From a virus, in the IMG/VR virus record IMGVR_UViG_3300020166_001708, positions 1 to 46,371 of that record: a stretch of DNA of 46,371 bases, one strand, 5' to 3'. Of the stretch, positions 11,419 to 44,545 are shown piece after piece. The translations under genes were made by a program, and so were the position numbers. Below the pieces are notes generated by a model. That model saw nothing but the letters and a program-made list of their open reading frames with translations, made no database searches and was not told where the DNA came from. Each line of letters begins with the position of its first letter. Position 1 is the stretch's first letter.

Positions 11419-11420
11419 TT

Positions 11421-19340: not shown

Positions 19341-19345
19341 GATAT

Positions 19346-19354
19346 ATTATACAC
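19346..19354 (-). promoter_or_regulatory. AGTGTA-type -10 element before GHKL ATPase
   Basis: AGTG followed by a perfect TATAAT on the minus strand, ending 5 nt before the ATG at 19340. No convincing -35 at the right distance. Confidence 0.5.
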
Positions 19355-23704: not shown

Positions 23705-24380
23705 AACCAAAGTAATCTAAATCACGAATGAAGTGATCTTCTATATATTCACGACTGTAATCAGAGTAGTAATCTCTGTAACTATTTTTCTTTTTGTATT
23801 CGGAGCTGCTATTCTTTCGCCAGTCATCGAACCCAGAGGAGCTACTGAAGCCAAAAACATCTTTTAATGCATCAAGACATCCTTCTATGTTTTCCATTTT
23901 ATAAAACTTATCAATAGCAATATCTCCATTAATTTTTATGCGGTCAACATAGTTTTCATAGTATCCAGCGTGAAATTTTAAAATAGCTTTTTCTTCGTAG
24001 GCGTATTTAATGAAACCATCAAAATCATCAGACATGTAATACTGGTGAAATTTCTGAACATAAGGCATCATTGGTGATTCTATATTGTTTTCAACAAAAT
24101 AATCGAACTTCCATCCGCCAAGATAAGAAAACATTGATACGACTCTATCAAATGGATTACGAACAACTGTGAACTTGAAGTAATCTTCGTAATCTGGCAC
24201 GTCTTGCGCGATAGCATTAAGGGCTCTTTCGCAGGTCACGTGATATTTGTCGTCATAATCCTGCTGGTTTTGATTCTTTGCATAATCTGACTCTATATTG
24301 GAAAGCAAATAATGCTTTACAAAAGTTCCTGCAGACTTGGGTATGTGAACGTATATAAATTTATGTTCGTGACTATACAT
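23694..24380 (-). CDS. Sulfotransferase family protein (5)
   Basis: 228 residues from the ATG at 24380, which overlaps the upstream TAG stop. PAPS loop FIYVHIPKSAGTFVKHYLL, 3'-phosphate motif FTVVRNPFDRVVSMFSYLGG, and KMENIEGCLDALKDVFG near the C-terminus, matching the F-E-N-I/L segment of its relatives. Predicted carbohydrate sulfotransferase. Confidence 0.8.
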   Translation of the reverse strand: MYSHEHKFIYVHIPKSAGTFVKHYLLSNIESDYAKNQNQQDYDDKYHVTCERALNAIAQDVPDYEDYFKFTVVRNPFDRVVSMFSYLGGWKFDYFVENNIESPMMPYVQKFHQYYMSDDFDGFIKYAYEEKAILKFHAGYYENYVDRIKINGDIAIDKFYKMENIEGCLDALKDVFGFSSSSGFDDWRKNSSSEYKKKNSYRDYYSDYSREYIEDHFIRDLDYFGYGF

Positions 24381-25224
24381 CAATTCTATCCATTACTTCT
24401 CGGTTGCTTAGGTTGTCCAAGAGGAATTGCTTTCCGTCCTCTCCGCATAAATGGCACAGATTAAAAGATTTATTGTCTTCTCCTTTTTGAAAACAAGCTT
24501 GGTAATTTGCGTTCCACACCCAATCTAATGGTTTGTGCTCTTTAAGTATATCTGTTTTTGTGTATGCGTATGCATATAAATCTTGATCAATAAAATCTTT
24601 TCTCTCTCCTAGTACTTCTAGAACTGGATTATCTATCAACCCATGATGCTTTAAGAAGTCAACAAAGCTGTATTGGTCAGGCAGTACCTTTGTCATTTTC
24701 CGTACAACTTCTCGCCCCATAACGTAACATCCTAAATTTAAATTGTATTTTGGTATATCCCTGTTGGTTTTTTCATTATGCCAGTATACATTTTCATCTT
24801 CTGGTATGCTTTTTAGGTATTTCTTAAGGAAGATTTCATTCTTCTGAACAACTGCTGGGTGAAATCCATAACCCATGACGAAATCGTTTTCTTCGTAAGT
24901 TTCAAAAATGTCCGTAGCGTCTTTGCTAACGACCATATCTAGATCAAGAAGCGCAAACTTATCATAGCTAGTCTTCATGAATTCATGCAAGAATAAAATC
25001 TTAATGAAGGTGCTCTTCTGGTAGAAGCTGAAGTTGTAATCATCTATTTCTTTGAATGCAGGGAAGTCATTCATTGAGATAATCTTAAGATCACAGTTTA
25101 TCTTTGATGCGTATCTTTCTAGCGACTTTAAACAGTGCGGTACCCAAGCGACATCTTGATAGCCTGGATTTGCGAAATCCGTATCAGACGGTAGGTTGTT
25201 GATAATATATATTACGTTACTCAT
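24373..25224 (-). CDS. GT8-like glycosyltransferase
   Basis: 283 residues. Motifs: STFIKILFLHEFMKTSYDKF, then ALLDLDMVVSKDATDIF (DxD), KYNLNLGCYVMGREVV, ERKDFIDQDLYAYAY and NLCHLCGEDGK (H-x-x-G, the C-terminal nucleotide contact). This is the GT8/GT-A pattern for retaining transferases. It ends with TAG. Substrate unknown; it may also modify a peptide or glycogenin-like acceptor. Confidence 0.65.
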   Translation of the reverse strand: MSNVIYIINNLPSDTDFANPGYQDVAWVPHCLKSLERYASKINCDLKIISMNDFPAFKEIDDYNFSFYQKSTFIKILFLHEFMKTSYDKFALLDLDMVVSKDATDIFETYEENDFVMGYGFHPAVVQKNEIFLKKYLKSIPEDENVYWHNEKTNRDIPKYNLNLGCYVMGREVVRKMTKVLPDQYSFVDFLKHHGLIDNPVLEVLGERKDFIDQDLYAYAYTKTDILKEHKPLDWVWNANYQACFQKGEDNKSFNLCHLCGEDGKQFLLDNLSNREVMDRIDV

Positions 25225-26150
25225 ACTATGGTTATTTCTAAATCTTCGTCAAGCAAGCCCCAGTTGTCTGGGTTTGGGTTATCTATCATTTTATTTCTGA
25301 TATCCAGGTCATTGGTCTTGCGCTCCCCTTCTTGTTGTGCGTGAGGCTGCGTGGTATCGTTGGATGCTCCTTCGGATCTGTCATGATTTTGATGGTAAAA
25401 ATCAGCATCTATTGATAAACATAAATTATATATATCTTCTTTCGCCGCAATACGATTAAGGAACTCTGTATCCATGCTATTCATGTAAACCAGCTTTTCA
25501 TTAAAGCCTTTGTGTTCAAGGTAGCATTCCCTGTCAACCATCATAACACCAACTGCACCGCCATAAAAAGGAAAAACTTTTCCGTTTGGCATTAATCGGC
25601 TATAGTGGTTATGCTCGTGACAAATATCAACCTTCATGGATAATTGTTGATCGTATATATAATCCCTAAAAACAGAATGATGAGATTGGTCTTCACTTAA
25701 ATTTCTACGACTACAAAACGCCGCTCTTGGCCAACTCCAACCATAATCTTTAACTTCATACTCATGGTAAAACCAATTCATGAACCTTTGACCTATTAAA
25801 GTGTCTTGGTCAATTCTCGCAAAATGTTTACCCTCCATGTTTCTGAATCCAACATTCATTGCGTGAACCTCTGAGAATGGAGAGTCTCCCTGGTGCCTGT
25901 CAGCTATCTCAGGTGACACGGTAACTATTTTAAGTAGACCTTTAGCTTCTGGGACTAATCTAGAAGATATAGACTCCCTTAAAGAGCCGCTACGAGAGCA
26001 CCAATCAACCAGTACGACTTCGGATTGATCAACAACATTATTCTTTGCAATGATTTCGCAGGCATGATTAACTGTGTTAACACAACGGCCAACCGAATCA
26101 CCATTATAATTATCATTTCTAGAAACTAATACGTAAGATATTCTTTTCAT
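25221..26150 (-). CDS. GT2/GT27-like glycosyltransferase
   Basis: 309 residues. First strand ISYVLVSRNDNY, SEVVLVDWCSRSGSLRESIS, FSEVHAMNVGFRNMEGKHFA and RIDQDTLIG (DxD) form the GT-A half; FPFYGGAVGVMMVDRECYLE and NSMDTEFLNRIA form the acceptor/base half. The pattern recalls polypeptide GalNAc- and chondroitin-type transferases more than ordinary GT2. Second large transferase of the operon. Confidence 0.65.
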   Translation of the reverse strand: MKRISYVLVSRNDNYNGDSVGRCVNTVNHACEIIAKNNVVDQSEVVLVDWCSRSGSLRESISSRLVPEAKGLLKIVTVSPEIADRHQGDSPFSEVHAMNVGFRNMEGKHFARIDQDTLIGQRFMNWFYHEYEVKDYGWSWPRAAFCSRRNLSEDQSHHSVFRDYIYDQQLSMKVDICHEHNHYSRLMPNGKVFPFYGGAVGVMMVDRECYLEHKGFNEKLVYMNSMDTEFLNRIAAKEDIYNLCLSIDADFYHQNHDRSEGASNDTTQPHAQQEGERKTNDLDIRNKMIDNPNPDNWGLLDEDLEITIV

Positions 26151-26788
26151 GATCCTGGGACTAATCTTTTAGAGTTAAAACAGAAAACGCGATTTTGATT
26201 AGGCACTGTAACTTGTATGCCTCCAATTTCTTTTAACATGTTCATGTGCACAGATTCTGGAGTGGATACGTGCTTTTCAAGATGCTTTAAGCAGTGAAAA
26301 TTTATACTATTTCTGTATTGTTTATCTATGTTGTGATTGTATGTATTTGGAACTATGTAAAAAATCTTATTCATCCAGTTAAACACATCATTTAATTTTA
26401 AAAGAATATCTTCTGAGTCGGTAACCACAAAGAAATTAGCTTTTCTCGCATTGATTTGAACTTTATTCATTTGCGCGATATAAACATTAATATCACTAAC
26501 TTTGTCAGCCTCGAGAATAACCCCCCAAGTATGCTCGGTAATTCTTTTATTGATTCTTATTATTTCTTCAATAGCTGTTTCTGGCATAGAGCTAAGGCTA
26601 TGAATTTCGTTTTCAAATTTGTAAGATTTGTATTCCATTGTTAGTTTTTTTATTTTGTCTTGTTCAGTATAGTATTTAAGTGATTGTTCGTAGTTTAATT
26701 CTCTATCTAGGTATTTTAATATTTGAAGGCTTTTATTTTCATATGCTGTTTTGGCTTTATTTAGTTTTTTTTTAAAATAAGATATCAT
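26147..26788 (-). CDS. Unknown protein heading the glycan operon
   Basis: 213 residues, not recognised. The N-terminal 65 residues are Lys/Glu-rich and likely coiled coil (SYFKKKLNKAKTAYENKSLQ). The rest has alternating strands and helices (WGVILEADKVSDINVYIAQM, NFFVVTDSEDILLKLND, FYIVPNTY), which could be a Rossmann-like fold. Start ATG overlaps the stop of a 33-residue upstream frame (TAATG), so the two may be translationally coupled. It ends in an ATGA overlap with the transferase at 25221-26150. Confidence 0.6.
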   Translation of the reverse strand: MISYFKKKLNKAKTAYENKSLQILKYLDRELNYEQSLKYYTEQDKIKKLTMEYKSYKFENEIHSLSSMPETAIEEIIRINKRITEHTWGVILEADKVSDINVYIAQMNKVQINARKANFFVVTDSEDILLKLNDVFNWMNKIFYIVPNTYNHNIDKQYRNSINFHCLKHLEKHVSTPESVHMNMLKEIGGIQVTVPNQNRVFCFNSKRLVPGS

Positions 26789-29338: not shown

Positions 29339-29656
29339 TTATAGATTTTCTGATATTCTTTTGAGCCTGGTTATTATGTAGTTTAAGTTGAGCGCGTTTA
29401 TTCTATCTACAACTATATCTCCTTTTTCTGGATGCATTAATGCGCCAGATTCCAACTCTCCCTCGTGGAGAACATAAGAGATGAAATCATGAGCGCCGTT
29501 ATTCTTTAACCAGTTCCAGTACATAGATCTTGTGCCCATCTTGCAGGAAAGTAGTACGTTTTCAAAATGAAACACTTTACTATACATAGTTACGTCCCTG
29601 AAGCAGGATATCTCGCTGGGAGGTTCGGATAGGGTTGAGTCTATGATCAGATTCAT
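29339..29656 (-). CDS. Hypothetical protein between lipoprotein and C1 peptidase
   Basis: 105 residues, ATG start sharing TAATG with the peptidase stop, and a stop that abuts the lipoprotein start. Mixed alpha/beta composition: ISCFRDVTMYSKVFHFENVL, then MGTRSMYWNWLKNNGAHDFI and GDIVVDRINALNLNYIITRL. No recognised family, signal peptide or TM. Tight coupling to a membrane-anchored peptidase and a lipoprotein suggests the three act in one pathway, perhaps late in infection. Confidence 0.55.
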   Translation of the reverse strand: MNLIIDSTLSEPPSEISCFRDVTMYSKVFHFENVLLSCKMGTRSMYWNWLKNNGAHDFISYVLHEGELESGALMHPEKGDIVVDRINALNLNYIITRLKRISENL

Positions 29657-30921
29657 TACTCTGCTTGCTGTTTTTTCTTAAAATCGCGCAAGTATGAGTC
29701 TCTATCTATGCCTTTCTCTTTAAACTCTTTTTCTAATTTTTCATCCCAGTTCATTGGTAATGCTTCGGGGTCAGAGGAGTTGGAGAATATAATTAATGCT
29801 AGAATCACAACTATTGCGCAAATTATCAATGGTATGTTTTTGCTTTTCTTGGGTTCTGGTTCGACAGGCTCTGGTTCGGGTTCGACAGGCTCTGGTTCGG
29901 GTTCGACAGGCTCTGGTTCGGGTTCGACAGGCTCTGGTTCTGGTTCGACAGGCTCTGGTTCTGGTTCGACAGGCTCTGGTTCGGGTTCGACAGGCTCTGG
30001 TTCGGGTTCGACAGGTTCTGGTTCTGGTTCTACAGGCTCTGGTTCGACAGGTTCTGGGTCAGGGTCAATTGGTTTTGGATTAATGAACCCATCAGAAAGC
30101 TCTACATAATAGGGCCCAATAGAGTTCATAATGGAAGACCTAAATAAGGAGTCCTCCATAAAAAAGTAGCCAGAGTTTCCAAAAAACAAACCCCAACTGT
30201 TTTGGAATTCCCAGTAAAGCTTGTCGTTTATATACTTCCAACCAATAAGACATACTGCGTGGCCGCCCGCAACCTCTGATGCTAAGTATTTTTCTGTATC
30301 AACAATGCCGTCATAACCAATAGAGAAAAAGTAATCCCTGACCTTGAATGCATACCAAAGTGGCCGGTCAATTACCATCCTTTTGATCTCTTCTGTTTCA
30401 GAGCAGGGTATAACGTGGTAGGAGCTAATCTTCTTGAGTCTAGCGTCTTCTTTTGCTCCTTCTTTAGGGTTGCTGGATTCCCTATCTATATATGGCCAAA
30501 AGCTTTCAAAACAGCAACCTTCGTTTATCAATGCGTTCGCAGCTCCCCTGATTGATGTTCCCGAGTAATCTTCACCTGCCCATGGGTCATATTTTTTGGC
30601 AGTCTTGTATATCCACATAGGACTTGGTTCTTCGGCCTTGAATGCATTAGCCGAACCAAGTACAACCCTTCCGCTGTGGCCCACGCATGAACCTATTGAG
30701 CCTTGATTAGCGACACTCACGCATAGTGATCTTCTAGAGAATTCCTTACCACTAATACTTTCAGATTTTAAATACTGAGAGACGTGAACCCAATCTCTTT
30801 CATCAGCAGGATGCTCAGAAACATTTAATTTTTTTTCTGAAAATTTATTCTTTTTGACGTATTTAGATACTGGATTGTCTAGTAGTAAGGACGCTATCGA
30901 TTGTATTAGTTTTTTTCTCAT
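29656..30921 (-). CDS. Membrane-anchored C1 (papain-like) cysteine peptidase
   Basis: 421 residues. Papain-family catalytic set: Gln73 and Cys79 in VANQGSIGSCVGHSGR, His221 in AGGHAVCLIGW and Asn241 in FQNSWGLFFGNSGYF. The N-terminal about 70 residues may act as a propeptide. After the catalytic domain comes a stalk of eight P-E-P-E-P-V-E repeats, then one TM helix (about 363-379) and a charged C-terminal tail ending KKKQQAE. The topology is an enzyme held away from a membrane by a stiff acidic rod. It could cut host surface proteins, process virion proteins or aid lysis. ATG start with an AGTGTA element 5 nt upstream. Confidence 0.85.
   Translation of the reverse strand: MRKKLIQSIASLLLDNPVSKYVKKNKFSEKKLNVSEHPADERDWVHVSQYLKSESISGKEFSRRSLCVSVANQGSIGSCVGHSGRVVLGSANAFKAEEPSPMWIYKTAKKYDPWAGEDYSGTSIRGAANALINEGCCFESFWPYIDRESSNPKEGAKEDARLKKISSYHVIPCSETEEIKRMVIDRPLWYAFKVRDYFFSIGYDGIVDTEKYLASEVAGGHAVCLIGWKYINDKLYWEFQNSWGLFFGNSGYFFMEDSLFRSSIMNSIGPYYVELSDGFINPKPIDPDPEPVEPEPVEPEPEPVEPEPEPVEPEPEPVEPEPEPVEPEPEPVEPEPEPVEPEPEPVEPEPEPVEPEPKKSKNIPLIICAIVVILALIIFSNSSDPEALPMNWDEKLEKEFKEKGIDRDSYLRDFKKKQQAE
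29852..30065 (-). repeat. 21-nt coding minisatellite, P-E-P-E-P-V-E stalk
   Basis: Ten V-E-containing tandem units, eight of them full 21-nt copies (plus-strand form GGTTCGGGTTCGACAGGCT and so on), inside the C1 peptidase gene. The copies differ only at a few third positions, so the array is young or kept uniform by recombination. Confidence 0.9.
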
Positions 30922-34010: not shown

Positions 34011-34868
34011 TTATGAATCGCTATTGTCTACGGCAGAAGTTGAGTTTGCCCAGTCCAGGTCTTTCCTTACGTCTAGATTAACTGACCATGCTGATTTTAA
34101 AAGTTTCGCATCTAGCCCATTTTTCTCAAAGGTGGATATTAATGCATTAATGTCTTTTGGGAAGCATGTGCCACCAAAACCTTTGTCTCCGTCGTGACCG
34201 GGAACTTGATAGTGGGACTCACCTATTCTTTTGTCACTAATAACTCCATTAATAATAGAGTTCCAATCTAATCCAAGTTTATCAATCAGCAAGTGTATCT
34301 CATTGAAAAAACTAACCTTGGTAGCAAAGAAACAATTAGCGATATACTTTACAGATTCAGACTCAACGCTTTTCATTATAAGACATGGCACATCAGGAAA
34401 ATTGTATTTAAATAAGCTGGCAGCTTCCTGTGCGACGTGCTGGTATTTGGTATAGCCTATTATGTGCCTATCTGCATTAATGAAATCTTCTTTTGCGAAT
34501 TTAGCGGTAAGAAATTCTGGGGAATGGATGATATGTAATTCCGGATGCGCTTCCTGTAGGCTTTCGGTTGTCCCAATTGGAACCGTTGATTTTATTATGA
34601 AGGTGGCGTTCGATCCGATGGATTTAATTTCGCTAAAGCAGGACTCTATAATTGATAGATTGCAGTCATCTCCCATAACATCCCTCATTGGCGTTGGGAC
34701 GCATATGAAAACAAAATCCTGAAGTATTACATCTCTAAGTGGGTGAGTTGACGAGTCTGGATTTTTATCATATACCTTTACTTCCTCGGACGAAAATCCG
34801 TTGGCAACTGCGGAACCAACGAAGCCATTCCCTATGACTCCAATTTTAATTTGGTCTGTTCTTTTCAA
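34011..34868 (-). CDS. UDP-glucose/GDP-mannose dehydrogenase, C-terminally short
   Basis: 285 residues; TTG start, overlapping the epimerase gene by 23 nt. NAD site GVIGNGFVGSA (10-20), KSTVPIGTT, IHSPEFLTA, VKYIANCFFATKVSFFNE and the catalytic-Cys motif DKGFGGTCFPKD (Cys235) are all present, so the first two domains and active site are intact. The usual C-terminal UDP-binding domain (roughly the last 120 residues of full-length enzymes) is missing. It may oxidise a UDP-hexose to the uronate with altered substrate binding, or work as a partial enzyme. Confidence 0.75.
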   Translation of the reverse strand: MKRTDQIKIGVIGNGFVGSAVANGFSSEEVKVYDKNPDSSTHPLRDVILQDFVFICVPTPMRDVMGDDCNLSIIESCFSEIKSIGSNATFIIKSTVPIGTTESLQEAHPELHIIHSPEFLTAKFAKEDFINADRHIIGYTKYQHVAQEAASLFKYNFPDVPCLIMKSVESESVKYIANCFFATKVSFFNEIHLLIDKLGLDWNSIINGVISDKRIGESHYQVPGHDGDKGFGGTCFPKDINALISTFEKNGLDAKLLKSAWSVNLDVRKDLDWANSTSAVDNSDS

Positions 34869-35757
34869 TCCAATCTTCTATTTTGCGGGATGGGTTCCAT
34901 CCAAGCATAGTTTTAGCCTTAGTGTTGTCCGCAAGAGTTTCTCTTGACTCTCCTGGTCTTGCTGGGATATGAACGTGTTCACCTCCAGTTAATTTAACCA
35001 AATCTAAGACTGAATGATTTGTGCCAGTTCCGAGATTAAAAAGCTCTCCTACGATTTTCTTATCATCCGACTCTCCAGCAAGAAACATTGCCTCGACTAT
35101 GTCTTTAACGTGAGTGTAGTCTCTGGTTTGAAGGCCATCTCCAACAACAGTCATTGCTTCGCCTGATTCTTTTTGCCTAAAGAATAAGCCGACAACTGGC
35201 GCGTAATCTCCAGCTAAAGGCTGACGCTCCCCGTAGACGTTAAAGAATCTAAATAGAACAGTTTCTAGGCCAAAAAGTTTTGTATACATTTTGCAAAGCT
35301 CTTCACAATTAGACTTGCTTACAGAATATGGGTTCAAGCAATCATTCGGCATATCCTCCTTTAAGGGAATTGGGTTTTTAAGCCCATAGCAAGAGGATGT
35401 CCCTGCGAACATTACTTTTTTGCAGTTATTTAATCGCGCGGCCTGAAGAACGTTGCAAGTTCCTAGTGAGTTGTTCTTGACAGCATCAGCTGGATCCTGT
35501 ACGCAAATTTGTATCCTGGACCTGGCGGCTAAATGAAAAACTAAGTCAACACCCTTGAAGAGTGGATTGAGTTTCTCGAAATCGCAAATATCTACTTTGT
35601 GGTTTTCGCAATCATCTCTCCATGTAAAATTAGAATTTGCAGTGGAGGATTCATCATCAACTACGACGACATCGTGTCCGGCTTTAAGTAATCTTTCAAC
35701 AAGATGACCGCCAATAAACCCGGCGCCACCTGTAACTAAACATTTTTTCTTTGACAT
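34846..35757 (-). CDS. NAD-dependent epimerase (UDP-glucose 4-epimerase-like)
   Basis: 303 residues, extended SDR. NAD site TGGAGFIGGHLVERL, AGTSSCYG, catalytic NPYSVSKSNCEELC (Tyr-x3-Lys), RFFNVYGERQ, TRDYTHVKDIVEAM and ARPGESRETLADNTKAK. This is the pattern of UDP-Glc/GlcNAc 4-epimerases and UDP-xylose synthases. Gene order with a UDP-sugar dehydrogenase suggests UDP-galacturonate-, UDP-GalNAc- or uronate-type donors for the glycan; the exact substrate cannot be told. Confidence 0.75.
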   Translation of the reverse strand: MSKKKCLVTGGAGFIGGHLVERLLKAGHDVVVVDDESSTANSNFTWRDDCENHKVDICDFEKLNPLFKGVDLVFHLAARSRIQICVQDPADAVKNNSLGTCNVLQAARLNNCKKVMFAGTSSCYGLKNPIPLKEDMPNDCLNPYSVSKSNCEELCKMYTKLFGLETVLFRFFNVYGERQPLAGDYAPVVGLFFRQKESGEAMTVVGDGLQTRDYTHVKDIVEAMFLAGESDDKKIVGELFNLGTGTNHSVLDLVKLTGGEHVHIPARPGESRETLADNTKAKTMLGWNPSRKIEDWIEKNRPN

Positions 35758-35762
35758 AATTA

Positions 35763-35771
35763 GTGTTACAC
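35763..35771 (-). promoter_or_regulatory. AGTGTA-type element before epimerase
   Basis: AAGTG followed by TAACAC on the minus strand, overlapping the fcl stop codon and ending 5 nt before the ATG at 35757. Confidence 0.35.
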
Positions 35772-36731
35772 TTGATCACAGTCAATATTTAAATTTTTAA
35801 TATACCATTTGTATGTTTTAACTATCCCGTCATTTAGTGCGACTTTCGGCGAGAACCCTTTTGACTTGATTCTTGTGTTATCCATTTTTTTTCTAAAAGT
35901 TCCGTCTGGCTTGGAGCTGTCAAATACTATTTGACCGTCATAACCAACTGCGTCTTTAATTAAATGCACTAATTCTAATATACTAACTTCATACTCTGAG
36001 CCACAATTTATATGAGAAATGCCGTCGCTATATATGTCTTTTGCATTTATGTTTTCCATGCAATGAATAACTCCATCGGCCAGATCTTCTACATATAAAA
36101 ATTCACGCATAGGTTTTCCAGACCCCCATACTTCTATTGATCTGTCACCTTTTTCTTTTGCGCAATGTATTTTGTTTATTAAGGCAGGTAAGACGTGCGA
36201 ACTCTTAAGATCAAAATTATCCCTAGGGCCATATAGGTTGCACGGCATTACCGAGTAAAAGTTGCAACCATATTGATCGTAAAAGCTTTCGCACATTTTG
36301 AGCGCGGCTATTTTAGCTATAGCGTAAGGCTCGTTAGTATGTTCAAGCGGGCCGGTAAGTAAGTATTCTTCCTTGATTGGTATGTCTGCATGCTTTGGAT
36401 ATATGCATGAAGAACCTAAGTTGATTAACTTCTTGACTCCAAATTTTTGCGCAGCCTTTATTATTGTTGATGAAATTTGTAAATTATCATAAAGGAAGTC
36501 TGCCCTGTATGTATTGTTGGCTAGAATTCCACCAACTTTAGCTGCACAAAGAATTACCGTGTCAATTTTTTCATCACTAAAGAAGTCCATGACCTTATGT
36601 TTGTTCATGAGGTTCATTTCCTGCCTAGTCCTAGTTATGATATTAGAATAGTTTAGGGACTCAAGCTTCTCAAGTATAGAAGAGCCGACCATTCCTCGAT
36701 GGCCAGCTATGAATATTTTTTCTTGCTTCAC
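35766..36731 (-). CDS. fcl: GDP-L-fucose synthase
   Basis: 321 residues, GTG start coupled to gmd by GTGA. Diagnostic motifs: IFIAGHRGMVGSSI, AAKVGGILANNTY, NLGSSCIYPKHADIPIKEE, NEPYAIAKIAALKMCES (Tyr-x3-Lys) and YGPRDNFDLKSSHVLPALI. It converts GDP-4-keto-6-deoxymannose to GDP-L-fucose by epimerisation and reduction. It works directly after gmd and feeds the fucosyltransferase-like genes at 12715 and 22044. Confidence 0.93.
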   Translation of the reverse strand: MKQEKIFIAGHRGMVGSSILEKLESLNYSNIITRTRQEMNLMNKHKVMDFFSDEKIDTVILCAAKVGGILANNTYRADFLYDNLQISSTIIKAAQKFGVKKLINLGSSCIYPKHADIPIKEEYLLTGPLEHTNEPYAIAKIAALKMCESFYDQYGCNFYSVMPCNLYGPRDNFDLKSSHVLPALINKIHCAKEKGDRSIEVWGSGKPMREFLYVEDLADGVIHCMENINAKDIYSDGISHINCGSEYEVSILELVHLIKDAVGYDGQIVFDSSKPDGTFRKKMDNTRIKSKGFSPKVALNDGIVKTYKWYIKNLNIDCDQV

Positions 36732-37759
36732 TTAGATAATAACGAATAATCGTTATGGTACATCTTAGAAACGAGCCCAAAAAAGTCTACCTTCCTGACC
36801 CAACCAAGTTCCTTTTCAGCAAGAGAGCAGTCTCCGCAAAGCTTGTGGACTTCAGCTGGCCTATAGTATTTGGGACTAACCTCAAAGAATAATTTGCCTT
36901 TTTTTGTGTAAAATTTTTCATTATCATCTTGACCTTCAGAGTAGAAATCTATTTCTGCGAACTCTAAAGTCTTGGTTAGGAATTCTCTTACGGTGTGCAT
37001 TTCCCCGCTACCCAATACGTAATTCTTAGGCTTGTCTTGATTCAGCATGATCCATACGCCAGACATGAAATCTTCGGCATCACTCCAGTCTCTCTTAGCA
37101 TCAAGGTTTCCTAATTGAAGAATAGGTATATCTTTTCCATCTTCTAAGGCGATTTTAATTTTCGCTATACTGTGGCTAATTTTTCTGGTTACAAAATCAA
37201 GACCTCGCCGAGTACCTTCATGATTAAATAGCCAACCCTGTACTGCATATAAATTGTAGGACTCCCTGTAGACCCTGACAATATGCCTAGCTGCGCACTT
37301 AGCAGCACCATAGGGAGATTGTGGTCTCAGTGGGTGATTCTCATCTTGAGGAACGCAAACCACATCTCCGAATTCTTCAGATGATCCAGCATTATAAAAT
37401 CTACATTCCGGAGCAAATCTTCTTATCGATTCCATAATATGTAGAACCGCGTCAGCGTCAGTATCCCATGTCTGGATTGGATAATCCCAGCTTCCAGCCA
37501 CAAAAGATTGAGCTGCAAAATTAATAAAATAATCTGGCTTAATATCTAGTATTACGTCCCGAATACTGTGCGCATCATTTAAGTCCATGTTGATTAACTC
37601 GAATCTAGGATTGCCTTCTAGATGCAGGATATTCTCGTGGTTTTTAACGCTCAACCTGCGTACCGAGCCATAAATTTTATGATCAGTGTTCTTTAATAAA
37701 TAGTCGACCATGTGACTTCCGTCTTGACCGGTGACTCCTGTTATAATTATTTTTTTCAT
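36728..37759 (-). CDS. gmd: GDP-mannose 4,6-dehydratase
   Basis: 343 residues, ATG. Motifs ITGVTGQDGSHMVDYLL, GSVRRLS, AAQSFVAGSWDYPIQTW, NAGSSEEFGDV, PQSPYGAAKCAARHIVR (Tyr-x3-Lys), NHEGTRRGLDFVTRKI and the downstream KYYRPAEVHKLCGD are those of GMD. Makes GDP-4-keto-6-deoxy-D-mannose, the precursor of GDP-fucose (and of GDP-rhamnose or GDP-perosamine). GDP-mannose must come from the host, as no guanylyltransferase is seen. Confidence 0.95.
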   Translation of the reverse strand: MKKIIITGVTGQDGSHMVDYLLKNTDHKIYGSVRRLSVKNHENILHLEGNPRFELINMDLNDAHSIRDVILDIKPDYFINFAAQSFVAGSWDYPIQTWDTDADAVLHIMESIRRFAPECRFYNAGSSEEFGDVVCVPQDENHPLRPQSPYGAAKCAARHIVRVYRESYNLYAVQGWLFNHEGTRRGLDFVTRKISHSIAKIKIALEDGKDIPILQLGNLDAKRDWSDAEDFMSGVWIMLNQDKPKNYVLGSGEMHTVREFLTKTLEFAEIDFYSEGQDDNEKFYTKKGKLFFEVSPKYYRPAEVHKLCGDCSLAEKELGWVRKVDFFGLVSKMYHNDYSLLSK

Positions 37760-37796: not shown

Positions 37797-38591
37797 TTAA
37801 TTGTTGTGTAGTATTTTTTTAAGATCATGGAAGTGGCTATCATGATCAATCGAGACGTGTATCTTTGGTGGGAATTCTATGCTTCTATAAAGGTAAACTA
37901 TCTTGTCGTATGCCTGTTTGTATTTTTTGTAGCTACTTGTGTCTCCTCCTTTATATCTTTGTTGGTTAAAAAGACCAAAACCCTTTAGGTCTAAGTTTTT
38001 TATAGATTTAAACCAATAGAAAACCATCGGAAGAAGGAAATATGTTAATTTATCTATCTCTCCCCTGCCATTGGTAAACCTATAAAGGTTATCCTGGAAG
38101 CATATATTTTGCTTTATTGCTGACTTTTCATTATTTAAAATGAACGTAGGATTTTGAGCGAAGCAGTTTTTATAAGTTTCGATTATTGGGTTTGTTTTAT
38201 ACAAAGATAAATATGATTTGTTTTTTATAAAATCATTTATTCCAAATTTAGGATTTCCGTTTATTTTTTTATTAACATTTAATATTGATTCGTAATTAAA
38301 CATTTCGTAGCCCAGGAAGTTTACATCAGCAAGAAAATCTGGATTGATCTCAGATAGTACATGACAATAAGATTGCGGGTCGATAAAAATGTGAAAGTCA
38401 GGGGATAGGGATATGTCTTTAAGGAAAAACATAGAAGATGAAGAAAAGGATATAATTACATATCCGTCTTGACGTTTTGATTCTATGTATTTTTTGGTTG
38501 TTTTTTTATCCAAAGCTGGCCCCAGTAATAAAACTTTACTTGAAGAAAATAAATCATTAATACTATCTGACTGGGAGCTTTTTGCCTTCAC
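37797..38591 (-). CDS. Maf/DUF115-like candidate nonulosonate transferase
   Basis: 264 residues; GTG start 9 nt after the TAG of the cytidylyltransferase gene and in the same frame. The N-terminal KVLLLGPALDKKTTKKYIES followed by YVIISFSSSS and SPDFHIFIDPQSYCHVL looks like the Rossmann half of Maf/DUF115 proteins (a P-D-F-x-x-x-x-D-P signature). Maf proteins transfer pseudaminic or legionaminic acid to flagellin in several bacteria. Next to the CMP-sugar genes, a transferase role is plausible but unproven. It differs from the other candidate at 42951. Confidence 0.45.
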   Translation of the reverse strand: MKAKSSQSDSINDLFSSSKVLLLGPALDKKTTKKYIESKRQDGYVIISFSSSSMFFLKDISLSPDFHIFIDPQSYCHVLSEINPDFLADVNFLGYEMFNYESILNVNKKINGNPKFGINDFIKNKSYLSLYKTNPIIETYKNCFAQNPTFILNNEKSAIKQNICFQDNLYRFTNGRGEIDKLTYFLLPMVFYWFKSIKNLDLKGFGLFNQQRYKGGDTSSYKKYKQAYDKIVYLYRSIEFPPKIHVSIDHDSHFHDLKKILHNN

Positions 38592-38600
38592 GAGATAAGT

Positions 38601-39368
38601 CTAAGCTTGTCGGCCTTTGTGTGACTTGTTTTTTGACTTTTGTTTTGAGAAATTACCATAAAGAACCTCGCCGACATCAAACTGCCATTGAAAGTCTATG
38701 TCAAAACACTCCAGTTCGTCTAAGCAGAAAAGTAGTGGTTTAGCTGGGCTTTTTGTGTCCATGAAGTATCCGTCTTCAATGATGTCAAGTCTGGTTGCGT
38801 AAAGACAATGGGCACCTTCGTACACGGGGTCAACAATTTTTGTATTCATGATGGGCAGATCCTTCCAGTCTGTAATACTGTTGTTGTCGGAATCCCAAAA
38901 GTAATTCCTTTTCTCGAACACCGAAAATGCACCCTCTTTTTCTGATTCTATAAATCTTGATACAAAATCATCTATGCTAGTTATACTTAAAAGGGGGTTG
39001 CATGCGCTAATTAAAATTGCATATTTATATTTTTTACTGAAATTTAAATTAATTTTGTTGTGCCATTCAAAGATTATTTTCATATCTTTTTCTTCGTTGG
39101 CGGAGGATTTAGATCTATTGTATATGTTTATGTTGTGTTTCTCGCCTATTTCTTTTATTTCCGTTTCATAGCATGAAAGATATATGTTATCTTTTGGTAT
39201 GATTGAAGAGTTCGAGAGTTTCGATAAGCAGATATCTAATAGCGTCGAACCAGCAAAAGGTCTTGTCATCTTTTTTGGAACACGCTCGGAGTTTAACCTA
39301 GCTTGTACAATGAAGCAGATATCGTTTATGCTTCTTGGTGGTTCGGCTGTAATTTTATTGGTCGCCAT
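38601..39368 (-). CDS. CMP-nonulosonate cytidylyltransferase (PseF/NeuA family)
   Basis: 255 residues. CTP-binding start FIVQARLNSERVPKKMTRPF, then LLDICLSKLSN, ILISACNPLLSITSIDDFV and a C-terminal DIDFQWQFDVGEVLYG with the metal-binding D-I-D. It activates a nonulosonic acid (pseudaminic, legionaminic or sialic type) with CTP. A poly-basic tail KQKSKNKSHKGRQA ends in TAG. Overlaps the 66-residue gene upstream by 14 nt. Pathway context (PseB, PseC, PseI) suggests pseudaminic acid or a close relative. Confidence 0.8.
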   Translation of the reverse strand: MATNKITAEPPRSINDICFIVQARLNSERVPKKMTRPFAGSTLLDICLSKLSNSSIIPKDNIYLSCYETEIKEIGEKHNINIYNRSKSSANEEKDMKIIFEWHNKINLNFSKKYKYAILISACNPLLSITSIDDFVSRFIESEKEGAFSVFEKRNYFWDSDNNSITDWKDLPIMNTKIVDPVYEGAHCLYATRLDIIEDGYFMDTKSPAKPLLFCLDELECFDIDFQWQFDVGEVLYGNFSKQKSKNKSHKGRQA

Positions 39369-39555
39369 GTGTTTTGTTATTTGCTAATTTATCTAATAGC
39401 ATGCTGATTTTTCCGTCACTCTTATTTATTTCCGCTAGTATTGGCCTTGCTTCTTCTGGAGCATGCTTGAAGGCGACCCTCAGGATATCCATCCAGTTCT
39501 TATTATTTTTACTCCTAACTTCTTCGACTGCATCTATTATTTCTAAATCTTTCAT
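39355..39555 (-). CDS. Small helical protein of the nonulosonate cluster
   Basis: 66 residues: EVRSKNNKNWMDILRVAFKH, APEEARPILAEINKSDGK and a helical end LLDKLANNKTHGDQ. All-helical, acidic/basic alternating. I have an impression of similar small proteins next to NeuA/PseF-type genes, but no function comes with it. 4-nt ATGA overlap with the acetyltransferase; likely co-produced with the pathway enzymes. Confidence 0.6.
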   Translation of the reverse strand: MKDLEIIDAVEEVRSKNNKNWMDILRVAFKHAPEEARPILAEINKSDGKISMLLDKLANNKTHGDQ

Positions 39556-39974
39556 ATTGTTTTTTCGTATAACTGTGGGGATTTGTACGTAAAGCCGTTT
39601 CGTTCCGCCATCTTTATGGAACTGATATTTTCTTTTTTAATTTCAGCAAGAAAATAACCTTTAGCGCTACCAAGAAATAAGGATAGCATTAAGCTGCCAA
39701 ACCCCTTGCCTCTATGCTTCGCGTCTATACTCCACGAGAGAAATTTCTCGTTTTGATTATTTGTGTCACATCTTATCGTACCAATGGATTCGCTATTAGG
39801 ATCTTCCATTATTAAAATATCCCTACTAGAATTGGATAAGCTGCGACTAAACCATTCCTTGTGTTGTTTTTCTGTAATAGCTGCCTGGTCAAATGAATTT
39901 AATCTAGTCGTGGGATCGTTTCTGCAGTTTAGTAAGAAACTCCAATCTTCAAAAACAGCAGGTCTTAAGTACAT
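39552..39974 (-). CDS. GNAT N-acetyltransferase (PseH-like)
   Basis: 140 residues, full GNAT fold: start LRPAVFEDWSFLLNCRNDPT, acetyl-CoA binding AKHRGKGFGSLMLSLFL (R-x-G-K-G-x-G), and ISSIKMAERNGFTYKSPQ at the end. In pseudaminic acid synthesis PseH acetylates the 4-amino group of the UDP-linked sugar; the size, the R-N-D start and the position between PseI- and PseF-like genes match that role. Overlaps the synthase by 10 nt. Confidence 0.75.
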   Translation of the reverse strand: MYLRPAVFEDWSFLLNCRNDPTTRLNSFDQAAITEKQHKEWFSRSLSNSSRDILIMEDPNSESIGTIRCDTNNQNEKFLSWSIDAKHRGKGFGSLMLSLFLGSAKGYFLAEIKKENISSIKMAERNGFTYKSPQLYEKTI

Positions 39975-40945
39975 ATAAAATCATCTTTATTGTAAAGTTT
40001 ATCAGAAACCCTGCCAATTGTCAAGTCAAAATTTCTTGCAGGCACGTTTCCAGTCAGGAAGGGTCTTTTTGTTGTGATATTCTCAGTGGTGAATGCTTCG
40101 CCTTTTCTTATCTCCGTCTTTGCTACCACGGACCTCATTGCATTTTTGAATTTAATTTCCGAATTAGATAATTCGTTTGATTTCTTTAACTCTAATGATT
40201 TTTCTGAAAATTTTATATATTCAATCATTTGGTTTAATTCGCTTGGTTCTAGTGCGAACGAGTGGTCTGGTCCAGGCAAGTTCTTGCTTAATGTAAAATG
40301 TTTTTCTATAATTTTTGCGCCAGCAGCAACAGCTAGAGCTGGAGTAAGTGGACTCTCTGTATGGTCAGATAGCCCCCACTTGTGGCGACTGTCTTGAGAT
40401 AAACGCCTTACGATGCCAATACCTGCGTCTTCTATTGGGGTTGGGTATGCGTTGTTACAGTGCATGAAGCTCAAGCAATTACCATATTTATTGGAAATGT
40501 CAAAAATTCTATCGATAAAACTCATTTCAAAACCTATACCTAAGGAAATAATAATTGGCAGTCCGGACGAGGCTACCATATCTATAAATCTAAAATCCGT
40601 GCATTCAAATCCTGATATTTTTAATCGACTTACGCCTAGATTAACCAACTCTTCTACAGCTTTTTCGTCAAAAGGAGTTGACATGAATTCAATTCCAATA
40701 TCATCGCAATACTTTTTAAGTTCTTTTTGCCATTCACGCGGAAGCTCTACATCCCTGATGAGTTTATTTATGTCTTTATATCCTGCGAAGTCTGGAGTGT
40801 TTTTACTGTATAGAGTTTCCGAGGAGTATGTTTGGAATTTACAGGCAGAAGCGCCTGCCTTAAACGCGACATCGATCAGGGACTTAGCTTGATCAAAATT
40901 TCTATTGTGATTTGACCCAGCCTCAGCTATCACAAAAGTGTTCAT
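39965..40945 (-). CDS. neuB: NeuB-family nonulosonate synthase (PseI/NeuB)
   Basis: 326 residues. NeuB barrel: FVIAEAGSNHNRNFDQAKSL, AGASACKFQTYSSETLY, FMSTPFDEKAVEELV, LKISGFECTDFRFIDMV, KWGLSDHTESPLTPALA, IIEKHFTL and GPDHSFALEPSEL. A C-terminal SAF (antifreeze-like) domain (about 265-326) follows. It condenses phosphoenolpyruvate with a 6-deoxy amino sugar to make a nonulosonic acid. Whether the product is pseudaminate or legionaminate cannot be told, but PseB and PseC homologs favour pseudaminate. Confidence 0.88.
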   Translation of the reverse strand: MNTFVIAEAGSNHNRNFDQAKSLIDVAFKAGASACKFQTYSSETLYSKNTPDFAGYKDINKLIRDVELPREWQKELKKYCDDIGIEFMSTPFDEKAVEELVNLGVSRLKISGFECTDFRFIDMVASSGLPIIISLGIGFEMSFIDRIFDISNKYGNCLSFMHCNNAYPTPIEDAGIGIVRRLSQDSRHKWGLSDHTESPLTPALAVAAGAKIIEKHFTLSKNLPGPDHSFALEPSELNQMIEYIKFSEKSLELKKSNELSNSEIKFKNAMRSVVAKTEIRKGEAFTTENITTKRPFLTGNVPARNFDLTIGRVSDKLYNKDDFICT

Positions 40946-40946
40946 T

Positions 40947-41987
40947 CTAATTGATCATTATGGAGTCCGCCCACATTTCGATAATGGGTGGTTCTTCGAT
41001 TTTGTATAATGGAAGGTTTATTATATTTTTATGTATACTTTCTGAGTTTTTAAGTTTAGCCTTAGAGTTGAAGTATTTAGTTTTGTGGAGTAGTGGATAA
41101 TGCGTTGACGTTGGGTACAGTTTTTTGATTTTATTTCTATTATTATCGTCAGCTATTATTGTAGAGAAGTAGTAAGAGCTATTTTCGTCGTGATCAATTA
41201 GTCTTGAGTTAAACAATATGTCGTCAAAAACCGCAGTCCTTGACTTGATTAAATTAAAATTATGTTTTCTTGTTTTTAATCTATCTGCGTGTGTCTTTAG
41301 ACTTTCGATAGCTAGACAAGAGTTCAAATCGTTCATGTAAAATTTAAAGCCAGACTGAACTATGTCGTAAGAATTTTTAGTGTTTTTCCTTCCGAAGTTT
41401 CTGTAGCAATTAAAGAAGTCTCTAGCTTTTTTGCAGTCGGTACTAATCATACCACCGTCACTTGAGCAGATTGGCTTATACGGATGAAACGAAAAGAAAG
41501 TAAAGTCAGATTTTATTTTTGGAGTAACACAATGAGCGGAATCAACAACTAACGTTTCGTCACCTTTTAATTTTAGGTTAGGTATTTGGCTGACACCGCC
41601 ATATAAAACTGGCATTACAACCGAATGATTCTGGCTATTGTTTGATCTTTTGTATAGATAATCATCAAAATCAAAAAGCAAATTATCATCAACATCCACG
41701 AATATTATATTGTGACCTAGGTGTTGGGCAGCCCAAGCTGGCGAGACGAAGCCGATAGATGGAGTATATACATCGCAGGGTCCGTGGATAGATTTTAGAT
41801 ATTCGAAAATCATAAATGCAGCGGAACTCGCAGAGCTTGTTGATACGTTATATTGTTTGCCAGATTTATTCTTGAAGAGTTTCTCTAGTTTAGACGATAG
41901 CGGACCAAAACCTATGTCCCCACTCTCTATTAACTTAGAGGCTAGCATGGTTTCTTTAGCGGAGAAGTTGCTGTTGAATAGTTTCAT
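40947..41987 (-). CDS. DegT/DnrJ aminotransferase (PseC-like)
   Basis: 346 residues from the ATG at 41987, which forms ATGA with the PseB stop; the longer frame to 42041 lies inside pseB. PLP-enzyme motifs: VSTSSASSAAFMIFEYL, CDVYTPSIGFVSPAWAA, VVDSAHCVTPKI and the PLP-lysine motif FSFHPYKPICSSDGGMIS, then CYRNFGRKNTKNSYDIVQSG. Predicted to transaminate the keto-sugar made by PseB, as PseC does. Ends in TAG. Confidence 0.8.
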   Translation of the reverse strand: MKLFNSNFSAKETMLASKLIESGDIGFGPLSSKLEKLFKNKSGKQYNVSTSSASSAAFMIFEYLKSIHGPCDVYTPSIGFVSPAWAAQHLGHNIIFVDVDDNLLFDFDDYLYKRSNNSQNHSVVMPVLYGGVSQIPNLKLKGDETLVVDSAHCVTPKIKSDFTFFSFHPYKPICSSDGGMISTDCKKARDFFNCYRNFGRKNTKNSYDIVQSGFKFYMNDLNSCLAIESLKTHADRLKTRKHNFNLIKSRTAVFDDILFNSRLIDHDENSSYYFSTIIADDNNRNKIKKLYPTSTHYPLLHKTKYFNSKAKLKNSESIHKNIINLPLYKIEEPPIIEMWADSIMIN

Positions 41988-42964
41988 GAGATTCCCGATT
42001 TTATTAAGGATATTAATGTTTCGGTGTTGCTTTCGACCCACAGTTTTGAGTTAAAGTGAGGGCCGGTGTATTTCTCGAAATCTTGGTGTTTTTTGTTTGT
42101 GTACTGTGGTCGTATTTGTAGTAAATTTATGTTTGGAACCCTGTAGGTAAAGGGGATCTCCGTGATTGAAAGCATATCTTCATGCAATTTCTCTCCAGGC
42201 CTTAAGCCTGATATTTTTGTAATAGACTTCTTTTGTAGTATTTCTTCTAGGGCAGAAATGCAGAGAGGCAGTGTGTAAGAGTTTATTTCTGGTACAAAAA
42301 CTTCACCACCAAAAGAGTTAACCAACGCATCAATGACTGTATTTACGGCATCATTAAGTGTGAACAGAAATCTAGTCATATCGTTCGAGGTGACGTTAAT
42401 TGGTTTGTTGTTTTTTATTTTATCAATAAACAAAGGTATGAATGAACCTCGTGAGGCAATTACGTTACCGTATCTAACTGAGGAAAAAATAGTCTTAGAG
42501 CCTTGGTTGTGAAAGTCAAAGTTAGTGAAGATTCTCTCTGCTATGAATTTACTACAACCATAGACGTTTACTGGTTCACAGGCCTTATCTGTAGAAATTA
42601 AGATGCACTTGCTGACGTTATTAAGTAGTGCCGCTTTCGCCACATTTCTTGAGCCTTCTATGTTTGTTTTTACGCATTCATCTGGAAATATTTCCATGTC
42701 ATCAATGCGCTTTAAAGCGGCAGCGTGAATTACGTAATCTGGCTTATGGGAAAAGAAAGTTTGGTTGACTTTCTCGAAGTCTCTTATGTCACCAATAACG
42801 GTTTCCACCTCTGGGAGTGAGTCTTTGATTGCGGCATGCTTCCCTTCGTCTCTACTGAACACTATTACTCTACAGTTTAATGATTTGAGTTTTTCGCATA
42901 AAGCCGACCCCAGAGATCCTGCGCCGCCTGTTATCAGTATAGTTTTATTTTTAAGCGATGTCAT
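41984..42964 (-). CDS. pseB: UDP-GlcNAc 4,6-dehydratase (inverting), PseB
   Basis: 326 residues. NAD site ILITGGAGSLGSALCEKL, PDYVIHAAALKRIDDMEIFP, ILISTDKACEPVNVYGCSKF (with the Tyr-x3-Lys pair), VRYGNVIASRGSFIPLF, NDMTRFLFTLNDAVNTV and SGLRPGEKLHEDMLS. These are the hallmarks of FlaA1/PseB. It starts pseudaminic acid synthesis from UDP-GlcNAc; the order PseB, PseC, PseI, PseH, PseF in the operon is that of a working pathway. ATG start. Confidence 0.88.
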   Translation of the reverse strand: MTSLKNKTILITGGAGSLGSALCEKLKSLNCRVIVFSRDEGKHAAIKDSLPEVETVIGDIRDFEKVNQTFFSHKPDYVIHAAALKRIDDMEIFPDECVKTNIEGSRNVAKAALLNNVSKCILISTDKACEPVNVYGCSKFIAERIFTNFDFHNQGSKTIFSSVRYGNVIASRGSFIPLFIDKIKNNKPINVTSNDMTRFLFTLNDAVNTVIDALVNSFGGEVFVPEINSYTLPLCISALEEILQKKSITKISGLRPGEKLHEDMLSITEIPFTYRVPNINLLQIRPQYTNKKHQDFEKYTGPHFNSKLWVESNTETLISLIKSGIS

Positions 42965-43739
42965 TTATTTTTATTTTTTTTATTGATTCTGGGTAGTTGT
43001 TGAATTTAGAAACCAATTCTAGTGATACGCCCTTGTTTGAAAACCATTCATTCCATGAGTTCATTAATCTTAAGTGCATATTTTTCTCTTCGTTGAAGTT
43101 GATCCATGGGGCGCTAGAATGCGGGTCGTTTGATATTTTATTGCATTTATTGTTTTCATCCCTGTAGAAATGAGTCTTATTCCCGGATGATTCATTATCG
43201 CAACCTATTAGTATGATTCTGGAGAAACCTAAATGCTCACACATATAAAATATTAACTCAGACATGATTCCCGGACCGTATGGTCTTAGATGGATATCAC
43301 AACCGTTCCAAGCAGACTTTATAAAATTTCCCTCTGATAATACCCATTTGTCTAACTCCCTGTGAGTGCCTTCGTTGGCGCATAATGCTGATAAGCTTCT
43401 ACCCTTATCCCTCTCCTTGATGTGAAAATATAAATCAAATGGATTAGTGGATGGCGCCAAACTTGAAGCTTCAACTATCATTGGTTTTTTTTCTCCATAA
43501 GCATAACTTTCCATATTACAACAGTTATATGCGTGAATGTCAACAAAATTCTTAAACAAATTATAAGACTGCTTGATTGCTATAACCCTGTGGGCGCTCA
43601 ATAACTCCATCATCAAGCCATCGTCATAATCACTAAGGAATGGCGAGCACCCAAGCACGATAGCAGTCTCGCCCTTAAACTTATTACATACGGATTCAAT
43701 TAGGGTCGATTGATTTTTTAAAACTTTTTCACTTGACAT
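42951..43739 (-). CDS. Maf/DUF115-like candidate nonulosonate transferase (2)
   Basis: 262 residues. ETAIVLGCSPFLSDYDDGLM, HRVIAIKQSYNLFKNFVDIH, then GPGIMSELIFYMCEHLGF and RIILIGCDNESSG follow the layout of DUF115/Maf and GT42 sialyltransferases: two Rossmann-like strands with a G-P-G/S motif and a final I-x-L-I-G-x-D. It is the first gene of the nonulosonate operon, which also suits a transferase of the finished CMP-sugar. Its start codon lies inside the divergent control region. Confidence 0.5.
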   Translation of the reverse strand: MSSEKVLKNQSTLIESVCNKFKGETAIVLGCSPFLSDYDDGLMMELLSAHRVIAIKQSYNLFKNFVDIHAYNCCNMESYAYGEKKPMIVEASSLAPSTNPFDLYFHIKERDKGRSLSALCANEGTHRELDKWVLSEGNFIKSAWNGCDIHLRPYGPGIMSELIFYMCEHLGFSRIILIGCDNESSGNKTHFYRDENNKCNKISNDPHSSAPWINFNEEKNMHLRLMNSWNEWFSNKGVSLELVSKFNNYPESIKKIKINDIA

Positions 43740-43760
43740 TTTCTTAATTTATGTTATAAT
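43733..43760 (+). promoter_or_regulatory. Consensus sigma70 promoter P1 for sigma/ssb operon
   Basis: Plus strand: perfect TTGACA (43733-43738), 16-nt spacer, perfect TATAAT (43755-43760). The -35 overlaps the start codon region of the divergent gene at 43739. Leader to the ATG at 43949 is about 180 nt and begins inside an inverted repeat. Confidence 0.85.
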
Positions 43761-43786
43761 GCTTCAAAAGCTTTAGCTATTGAAGC
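43761..43786. repeat. Inverted repeat at P1 start site
   Basis: GCTTCAA (43761-43767) and TTGAAGC (43780-43786) form a perfect 7-bp inverted repeat with a 12-nt loop, directly after the -10 of P1. It could be an operator or a 5' hairpin in the message. Confidence 0.5.
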
Positions 43787-43835
43787 TATTCTCATGTTAA
43801 TCTTATTTGTCTAACGTTAGTCTAATCAATCAGTA

Positions 43836-43867
43836 ATCTTACGGAGACCTCATATCTTACGAAGACC
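43836..43867. repeat. Direct repeat pair in the control region
   Basis: ATCTTACGGAGACC (43836-43849) and ATCTTACGAAGACC (43854-43867) are 14-nt repeats with one mismatch and an 18-nt period, inside the leader between the two plus-strand promoters. The spacing suggests tandem regulator sites. A perfect palindrome CTAACGTTAG lies at 43811-43820. Confidence 0.5.
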
Positions 43868-43898
43868 AAGCGCGCGAGATTTTCTTCTTTCTTTTTGC

Positions 43899-43927
43899 TT
43901 GACATTACTATGATTATATGTTAGTCT
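43899..43927 (+). promoter_or_regulatory. Second plus-strand promoter P2
   Basis: TTGACA (43899-43904), 17-nt spacer, TAGTCT (43922-43927) on the plus strand, about 21 nt before the sigma gene ATG. GTTAGTCT at the -10 also occurs at 43816-43823 in the palindrome upstream. Confidence 0.55.
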
Positions 43928-43941
43928 CTTATTTATTCTAA
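43913..43941 (-). promoter_or_regulatory. Divergent minus-strand promoter for the nonulosonate operon
   Basis: Minus strand: TTAGAA (43941-43936), 17-nt spacer, TATAAT (43918-43913), overlapping P2. It would give a long leader (about 170 nt) to the ATG at 43739, running through the direct repeats and the inverted repeat. Confidence 0.4.
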
Positions 43942-43948
43942 ATAAAAA

Positions 43949-44458
43949 ATGGAAATAAACTCCTTATCCGATAATGAGCTAGTCTGCAATTTGCAGGTTG
44001 GCGTAGAACCCGAGCAAAGCTTGGGCGAATTGGTTCAACGTCATAGTGGTATATTCATAACGATGGTGAATAATTACTCTCCTACTAGCACGTCCGGGAT
44101 AGTCTCAGACAGGGTAGATCTACTGAAGGATAGAAATTACTATATTTATAAAGCGGCGCTAAAATACGATGACTCTAGAAATACTAAATTTTCAACCCAT
44201 CTTGGCAACGAGACTAGATGGTTATGCTTGAACTTATATAATAAAAATAAGAACTCAAAGGAAGTTCATATGGATTATGCTGATATCGGCAAGAGGTCAG
44301 AGGATAAGCCTGAAGATAAAAAAGTAGACCTAGAAGTTTTAAGTAAAATCATGAACCTAATAAATAAAGATCCTGACACCAGGGTTTCAAAGATATTCAA
44401 AATGAGATACATAGAAGGGCAGAGGAACAACGTAATGCCATGGAATAAAATATTTTAG
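43949..44458 (+). CDS. gp55-like sigma factor, cut short by an amber codon
   Basis: 169 residues to the TAG. Sigma region 2 is seen in LVQRHSGIFITMVNNYS, KDRNYYIYKAALKYDDSRNT and KFSTHLGNETRWLCLNLYNK (the K-F-S-T core and the helix that contacts -10 DNA). The linker then leads to KIFKMRYIEGQRNNVMPWNK, the start of region 4. The TAG falls in the middle of region 4; the same frame continues for 28 codons (see 44459-44545). It probably directs RNA polymerase to phage late promoters. Regions 2 and 4 alone are the gp55 design. Confidence 0.75.
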   Translation: MEINSLSDNELVCNLQVGVEPEQSLGELVQRHSGIFITMVNNYSPTSTSGIVSDRVDLLKDRNYYIYKAALKYDDSRNTKFSTHLGNETRWLCLNLYNKNKNSKEVHMDYADIGKRSEDKPEDKKVDLEVLSKIMNLINKDPDTRVSKIFKMRYIEGQRNNVMPWNKIF

Positions 44459-44545
44459 CCACTAAAGCTTAGCATACAGGGGTGCATAAACATCCACGAC
44501 AAAGCAATCACTAAAATAAAAAGAGAACTAAAAAACGAATTATGA
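44459..44545 (+). pseudogene. In-frame region 4 continuation after the amber codon
   Basis: The frame stays open after TAG (44456-44458): PLKLSIQGCINIHDKAITKI followed by KRELKNEL, then TGA. This is the expected helix-turn-helix end of sigma region 4. The TGA overlaps the ssb ATG as ATGA at 44542-44545, the junction used elsewhere in this genome. So the full gene ended here, and the amber is a late change, a read-through site or a sequencing error. Confidence 0.8.

Follow-up and report, generated by a model that had tools for sequence, protein, structure and literature searches.

A viral nonulosonate gene run without PseG

The textbook pathway to pseudaminic acid requires the uridine diphosphate (UDP)-sugar hydrolase PseG. 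In bacteria, the PseB-C-H-G-I-F set, as in the Caulobacter Flm system, uses an inverting dehydratase with an active-site Tyr, a DegT aminotransferase, a GNAT acetyltransferase, a NeuB synthase and a cytidylyltransferase, and flagellin modification in Caulobacter depends on FlmD, the equivalent of PseG (PMC7591256). Maf enzymes glycosylate flagellin, and their central domain (pfam01973) has been described as similar to Cst-II (PMC11339370). We analysed a 46,371-base marine virus record of IMG/VR (IMGVR_UViG_3300020166_001708, hereafter the window), in which a run of minus-strand genes (37797–43739) follows the same order of chemistry as the Pse/Flm set. In contrast to that set, the run is phage-encoded, lacks PseG/FlmD, contains an extra 66-amino-acid protein (sm66), has a NeuB outside the PseI clade and scores below the equivalog cut-offs. 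The run is real and recurs among viruses as a variant form of a pathway known from bacteria, from which one enzyme is systematically missing. This form is apparently undescribed, and no description of a phage-encoded pseudaminate pathway was found in the literature searched.

In minus-strand order, the run opens with a 262-amino-acid protein of MptE/Maf/sialyltransferase fold, a probable nonulosonyltransferase (42951–43739). It is followed by a PseB-like UDP-N-acetylglucosamine (UDP-GlcNAc) 4,6-dehydratase of the inverting type (41984–42964; PF02719, Polysacc_synt_2, E-value 5e-82), a PseC-like DegT/DnrJ aminotransferase (40947–41987; PF01041, 3e-35), a NeuB-family nonulosonate synthase with a SAF domain (39965–40945; PF03102, 1e-64), a short PseH-like GNAT N-acetyltransferase (39552–39974; PF13302, Acetyltransf_3, 2e-12), the conserved sm66 (39355–39555), a probable cytidine monophosphate (CMP)-nonulosonate cytidylyltransferase of PseF/SpsF-like type (38601–39368; PF02348, CTP_transf_3, 1e-14) and a 264-amino-acid protein of MptE/sialyltransferase fold, a second probable transferase (37797–38591). 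The Pfam matches are far above chance. Between 43739 and 37797 nearly all neighbouring genes overlap by a few bases, and no junction has a gap of more than about 10. A preliminary description of this DNA had listed overlapping relatives of PseB, PseC, PseH, NeuB/PseI and PseF on one strand; all are present, and the list was one gene short, the sm66 gene having been overlooked.

The NCBIfam equivalog scores were 260 bits against a cut-off of 408 for PseB (TIGR03589), 94 against 424 for PseC (TIGR03588), 231 against 340 for PseI, 37 against 206 for PseF (TIGR03584) and 38 against 93 for PseH (TIGR03585). Since all of these are below the cut-offs, the Pse names used here denote family and fold, and orthology is unproven. 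The synthase also matched NnaB at 278 bits, again below the cut-off, and its best match in the PDB is SpsE (1vli) of the B. subtilis SpsE/SpsF/SpsG system, which the phage set further resembles in its SpsF/PseF-like cytidylyltransferase. For the PseB-like protein the best PDB match is H. pylori FlaA1 (2gn4), and its motif STDKACEPVNVYG keeps the Tyr (YG) at the place where CapE has Met. This active-site Tyr of inverting dehydratases was kept in 45 of 45 viral PseB proteins, which makes a pseudaminate-type inverting first step likely as judged from the sequences. The PseC-like protein has a DegT domain and a candidate pyridoxal phosphate lysine in SFHPYKPICSSDGG (SFHPYKP motif). Its open reading frame reaches a GTG at 42041, but translation probably begins at the ATG at 41987. 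The pseudaminic identity of the product is unproven, because the synthase falls outside the clade of PseI proteins; the earlier label 'pseudaminic-acid-type' is therefore likely to hold for the first step and not established for the product.

Absence of PseG across related viruses

No PseG match (TIGR03590) was obtained in the window even at E ≤ 10. The window is a fragment, and absence from it alone proves little. The same threshold gave no PseG in 53 related IMG/VR records (7 first relatives and 46 further ones, several longer than 100 kb), among them a 99%-identical sibling. As controls, the PseG model gave matches in Caulobacter and B. subtilis, and all of the 11 Pseudomonadota genomes in which PseI passed the cut-off had a PseG-family gene, mostly near PseI. 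The PseG/SpsG family was never found in the viral loci, whereas a member lay within 6 kb in 33 of 42 bacterial loci selected for a phage-related NeuB and wide flanks. The viral records are fragments, and the evidence for absence is weak in each single case and strong as an overall pattern. The earlier statement that PseG is the only missing step is upheld for the window and the 53 related records.

Two candidates for a concealed hydrolase were rejected. NeuC gave one chance-level match and no credible one in the 53 viral records. Among the viral neighbour families, only family 73 showed a possible hidden divergent PseG, with a 96-column match at 77% probability; this was attributed to generic GT-B similarity, the family reading like a GT4-type GT-B enzyme.

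The remaining genes recur: 48 related viral loci contained NeuB in 48 cases, PseB in 45, PseF in 45, the PseC-like protein in 34 and another aminotransferase family in 13, and motifs were conserved in about 50 diverse viruses. In the NeuB tree, 49 viral proteins and two orphan alphaproteobacterial genes formed one supported clade, apart from PseI and from SpsE/NnaB-like bacteria. The clade is largely viral, and, apart from two Flavobacteriaceae bins that contain the phage itself, only two bacterial NeuB matches exceeded 50% identity. A NeuB query of 50,697 deposited phage records returned three matches, all below 35% identity; a DNA search of deposited phages gave two 63-base matches, in records labelled Staphylococcus phage, and a megablast search of window positions 1–25000 against them gave none. 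Near-complete nonulosonate pathways are thus recurrent in about 50 uncultivated viral contigs and almost absent from the deposited phage records.

Several variants were seen among the relatives. In 13 viral loci (L004, L007 and 11 others), the PseC-like gene is replaced by genes for a glutamate-1-semialdehyde-aminotransferase-like protein and a Gfo/Idh-type oxidoreductase (both named from their sequences), which suggests a different nonulosonate in these viruses. A second, divergent NeuB paralogue with its own clade occurs in 20–22 viral loci (for example, L008:1993–2826). Near NeuB in six viral loci lies a gene for a metallo-beta-lactamase-fold protein of about 444 amino acids (for example, L130:11231–12562), possibly a nonulosonate-modifying enzyme.

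Predicted folds of the two flanking proteins

Both flanking proteins matched PF01973 below the Pfam gathering score of 34.6 (21.2 bits for the 42951 protein and 26.4 bits for the 37797 protein). The 42951 protein also showed a weak match to the sialyltransferase family phrog_4603, and PDB sequence searches with both proteins gave chance matches only. AF2 (AlphaFold) models reached a predicted local distance difference test score (pLDDT) of 84 and a predicted template modelling score (pTM) of 0.87 for the 42951 protein, and 81 and 0.85 for the 37797 protein. With the former model, Foldseek returned archaeal HPPK/MptE (8sd5, probability 1.00), Maf (5mu5, probability 0.93, TM-score 0.46) and ST8SiaIII (0.84); with the latter, 8sd5 (0.97), ST6GALNAC2 (0.77) and CstII (0.57). 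HPPK/MptE is thus the best fold match of both, although the phage context is nonulosonate and not pterin. The likeness to the GT42/GT29 sialyltransferases (CstII, ST8SiaIII and ST6GALNAC2) is one of fold (probability 0.5–0.8), with a CMP-sugar donor expected, but the flanking proteins have no significant PDB sequence match. Maf shares a nonulosonate gene neighbourhood and possibly a related core fold; unlike the three-domain Maf, both phage proteins are single-domain, they score below the PF01973 cut-off, and no flagellin was seen.

Profile comparisons connected the 42951 protein (95%) and the 37797 protein (100%) to the same viral GT42-like family, through which the two are linked. Several relatives carry the 42951 domain at the C-terminal end of a longer GT4-like protein. 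On these models and profiles the flanking proteins are best read as nonulosonyltransferases, an activity that we infer. The preliminary description had proposed them as two Maf-like candidates, and the predicted folds do resemble those of Maf, MptE and the sialyltransferases rather than unrelated enzymes. Its further suggestion that one of them acts in place of PseG was rejected, as hhalign gave probabilities of 0.2% and 0.9% and no PseG was among the Foldseek matches listed.

Proposed route and possible sources of the missing hydrolase

We consider it fairly probable that a CMP-activated pseudaminate-type nonulosonate is made during infection and added to a phage-built glycan on a virion protein, with UDP released by something other than an encoded PseG. 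The PseB-like protein would carry out the inverting dehydration of UDP-GlcNAc and the PseC-like protein the 4-amination, and the GNAT, with sm66 as an accessory part, may perform N-acetylation. UDP would be removed ahead of the NeuB step by a host or non-PseG enzyme. NeuB would then condense the sugar with phosphoenolpyruvate, the PseF-like enzyme would activate it with CMP, and the two flanking proteins of MptE/Maf/sialyltransferase fold would transfer it. The putative acceptor is a cytoplasmic glycan on a virion protein, built by the phage glycosyltransferase array with fucose from Gmd/Fcl. If the route is active, these phages make their own sialic-acid-like coats, which would matter for host defence, for superinfection and for the use of receptors.

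In favour of this proposal are the family matches and motifs, the recurrence of the set in 48 viral loci, the predicted folds of the flanking proteins with the GT4-like context of the 42951 relatives, and the glycosyltransferase array and GDP-fucose genes of the phage, as well as the difference of its sibling in two glycan genes. Several points weigh against it. None of the proteins reaches its own Pse equivalog cut-off, and the viral NeuB lies outside the PseI clade. The pathway as written does not close, because no UDP hydrolase is encoded. The fold matches of the flanking proteins are remote (TM-score 0.36–0.46, E of about 1e-3 or worse), the genome is incomplete and the host is unproven.

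It is quite possible, if somewhat short of probable, that the host completes the pathway: pseudaminate-making hosts would supply the hydrolase, and the phage lost PseG or never took it. PseG is soluble and acts as a standalone enzyme, and bacteria with PseI normally have it, as the 11 of 11 genomes above illustrate. However, 53 of 53 related viral records lack it while carrying the rest. The only bacterial bins containing the phage are the two of Flavobacteriaceae; such co-binning hints at the host and does not prove it. PseG over the cut-off was found in 14 of 300 Flavobacteriaceae genomes and in neither of these bins, so that the host supply envisaged in the preliminary description is possible in general but weak for this family.

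The sm66 domain and a possible PseG-independent route

The consistent absence of PseG raises a testable question, namely whether PseG is truly needed or another enzyme does its work. We regard as rather unlikely a PseG-independent route in which a cluster protein (sm66, the accompanying acyltransferase or another) or an unrelated nucleoside diphosphate-sugar hydrolase frees UDP. The whole viral group without PseG speaks for it. The sm66 domain occurs in 26 of the 48 viral loci, standalone or as the C-terminal domain of a formyltransferase or a GNAT, with the invariant residues R14, N17, N18, W21, D23 and R26. A longer PseH-like GNAT was present in 18 of 22 loci without sm66 vs 2 of 26 with it (Fisher p 1.6e-7), and two examples of the full-length GNAT scored 82–89 bits of the 93 required for PseH. 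This pattern ties sm66 to the N-acylation step. From the formyltransferases it seems that some relatives produce N-formyl variants in place of N-acetyl ones.

Outside the viruses, sm66 is fused to GNAT in two alphaproteobacterial genomes (G277 and G514; loci L241 and L247), in a flagellin locus with a Pse cluster. Scoring against NCBIfam, which covered G277, placed PseB and PseI above the cut-off and PseC and PseF just below it; both loci contain a TPR protein that by reading resembles FlmG. No PseG was detected genome-wide in either genome, the completeness of which is not established (931-kb and 487-kb contigs are present in one). These two genomes are the best lead for a dispensable PseG and make a PseG-independent route a live possibility. 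By group, sm66 was found in 0 of 398 wider Pseudomonadota, 1 of 385 genomes of the alphaproteobacterial class and 2 of 28 of one order, and a protein search of deposited phages gave no match.

Against a PseG-independent route, no viral neighbour family is PseG-like beyond the generic GT-B match. The 22 of 48 viral loci without sm66 also lack PseG, most of them having a full-length PseH-like GNAT, and sm66 as a universal PseG substitute was therefore retained only as an idea of low probability. That a PseG-independent route to a CMP-pseudaminate-type sugar exists in marine viruses and a few alphaproteobacteria, with sm66 or its fused acyltransferase helping to release UDP, seems to us improbable.

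Acceptor, glycan array and phage record

Beyond 37797, the same minus-strand run continues with a guanosine diphosphate (GDP)-mannose 4,6-dehydratase (36728–37759; PF16363, 3e-102), a GDP-L-fucose synthase-like protein (35766–36731; NF047922, 436 bits of 500) and a UGD-like UDP-glucose/GDP-mannose dehydrogenase together with a GalE-like epimerase (34011–35757; PF00984/PF03721 and PF16363/PF01370). Also on the minus strand, an array of soluble putative glycosyltransferases, a sulfotransferase and a methyltransferase (9714–26788), with PF03567, PF13578, PF03407, PF00535 and PF01697 in part of its open reading frames, spans about 17 kb and is likely the glycan-building partner. No membrane segments were predicted in this array, so it holds no Wzx/Wzy-like export partner. 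Because the glycosyltransferases are soluble, GDP-fucose genes are present and the array has no Wzx/Wzy-like protein, an acceptor located in the cytoplasm is favoured over flagellin, a virion protein being the likeliest candidate.

Somewhat doubtful is the alternative that the sugar decorates not the virion but the host surface (lipopolysaccharide (LPS) core or glycan, with a block to superinfection) or host flagellin. Phage glycosyltransferases can alter LPS, and the Maf enzymes glycosylate flagellin as cited above. The lack of a Wzx/Wzy-like membrane protein in the array argues, indirectly, against the host surface. Flavobacteriaceae are generally non-flagellated, an indirect argument against flagellin. 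With the phage binned only in this family and no flagellar gene seen in the window, the earlier proposal of flagellin as acceptor finds no support.

A decaying operon or non-functional acquisition, to which the missing step and low equivalog scores might point, is very improbable, since all its frames are open, the sibling keeps every operon gene at 98–100% protein identity and the motifs persist in the roughly 50 diverse viruses.

The window encodes a primase, a DnaB helicase, UvsX and a ribonucleotide reductase, and the 75-kb sibling (G001) adds a DNA polymerase, a tail sheath and other tail proteins. The source is a tailed phage fragment, probably of the contractile-tail (myovirus) type. 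The sibling array has two extra genes (204 and 240 amino acids) that are absent at window positions 10880 and 19354; genes are thus gained and lost in the array even between near-identical phages, which suggests a changing glycan. The gene at window 6485–7330 and its counterpart at sibling 18534–19370 agree at the N- and C-terminal ends but have exchanged middle parts, with 47% identity over the whole; the product has the look of a lectin-like binding protein. A peptidase-family protein (window 29656–30921, sibling 43079–44533) has a tail of EPEPEPV repeats that precedes a membrane segment, and the repeat number differs between the siblings (proteins of 421 vs 484 amino acids).

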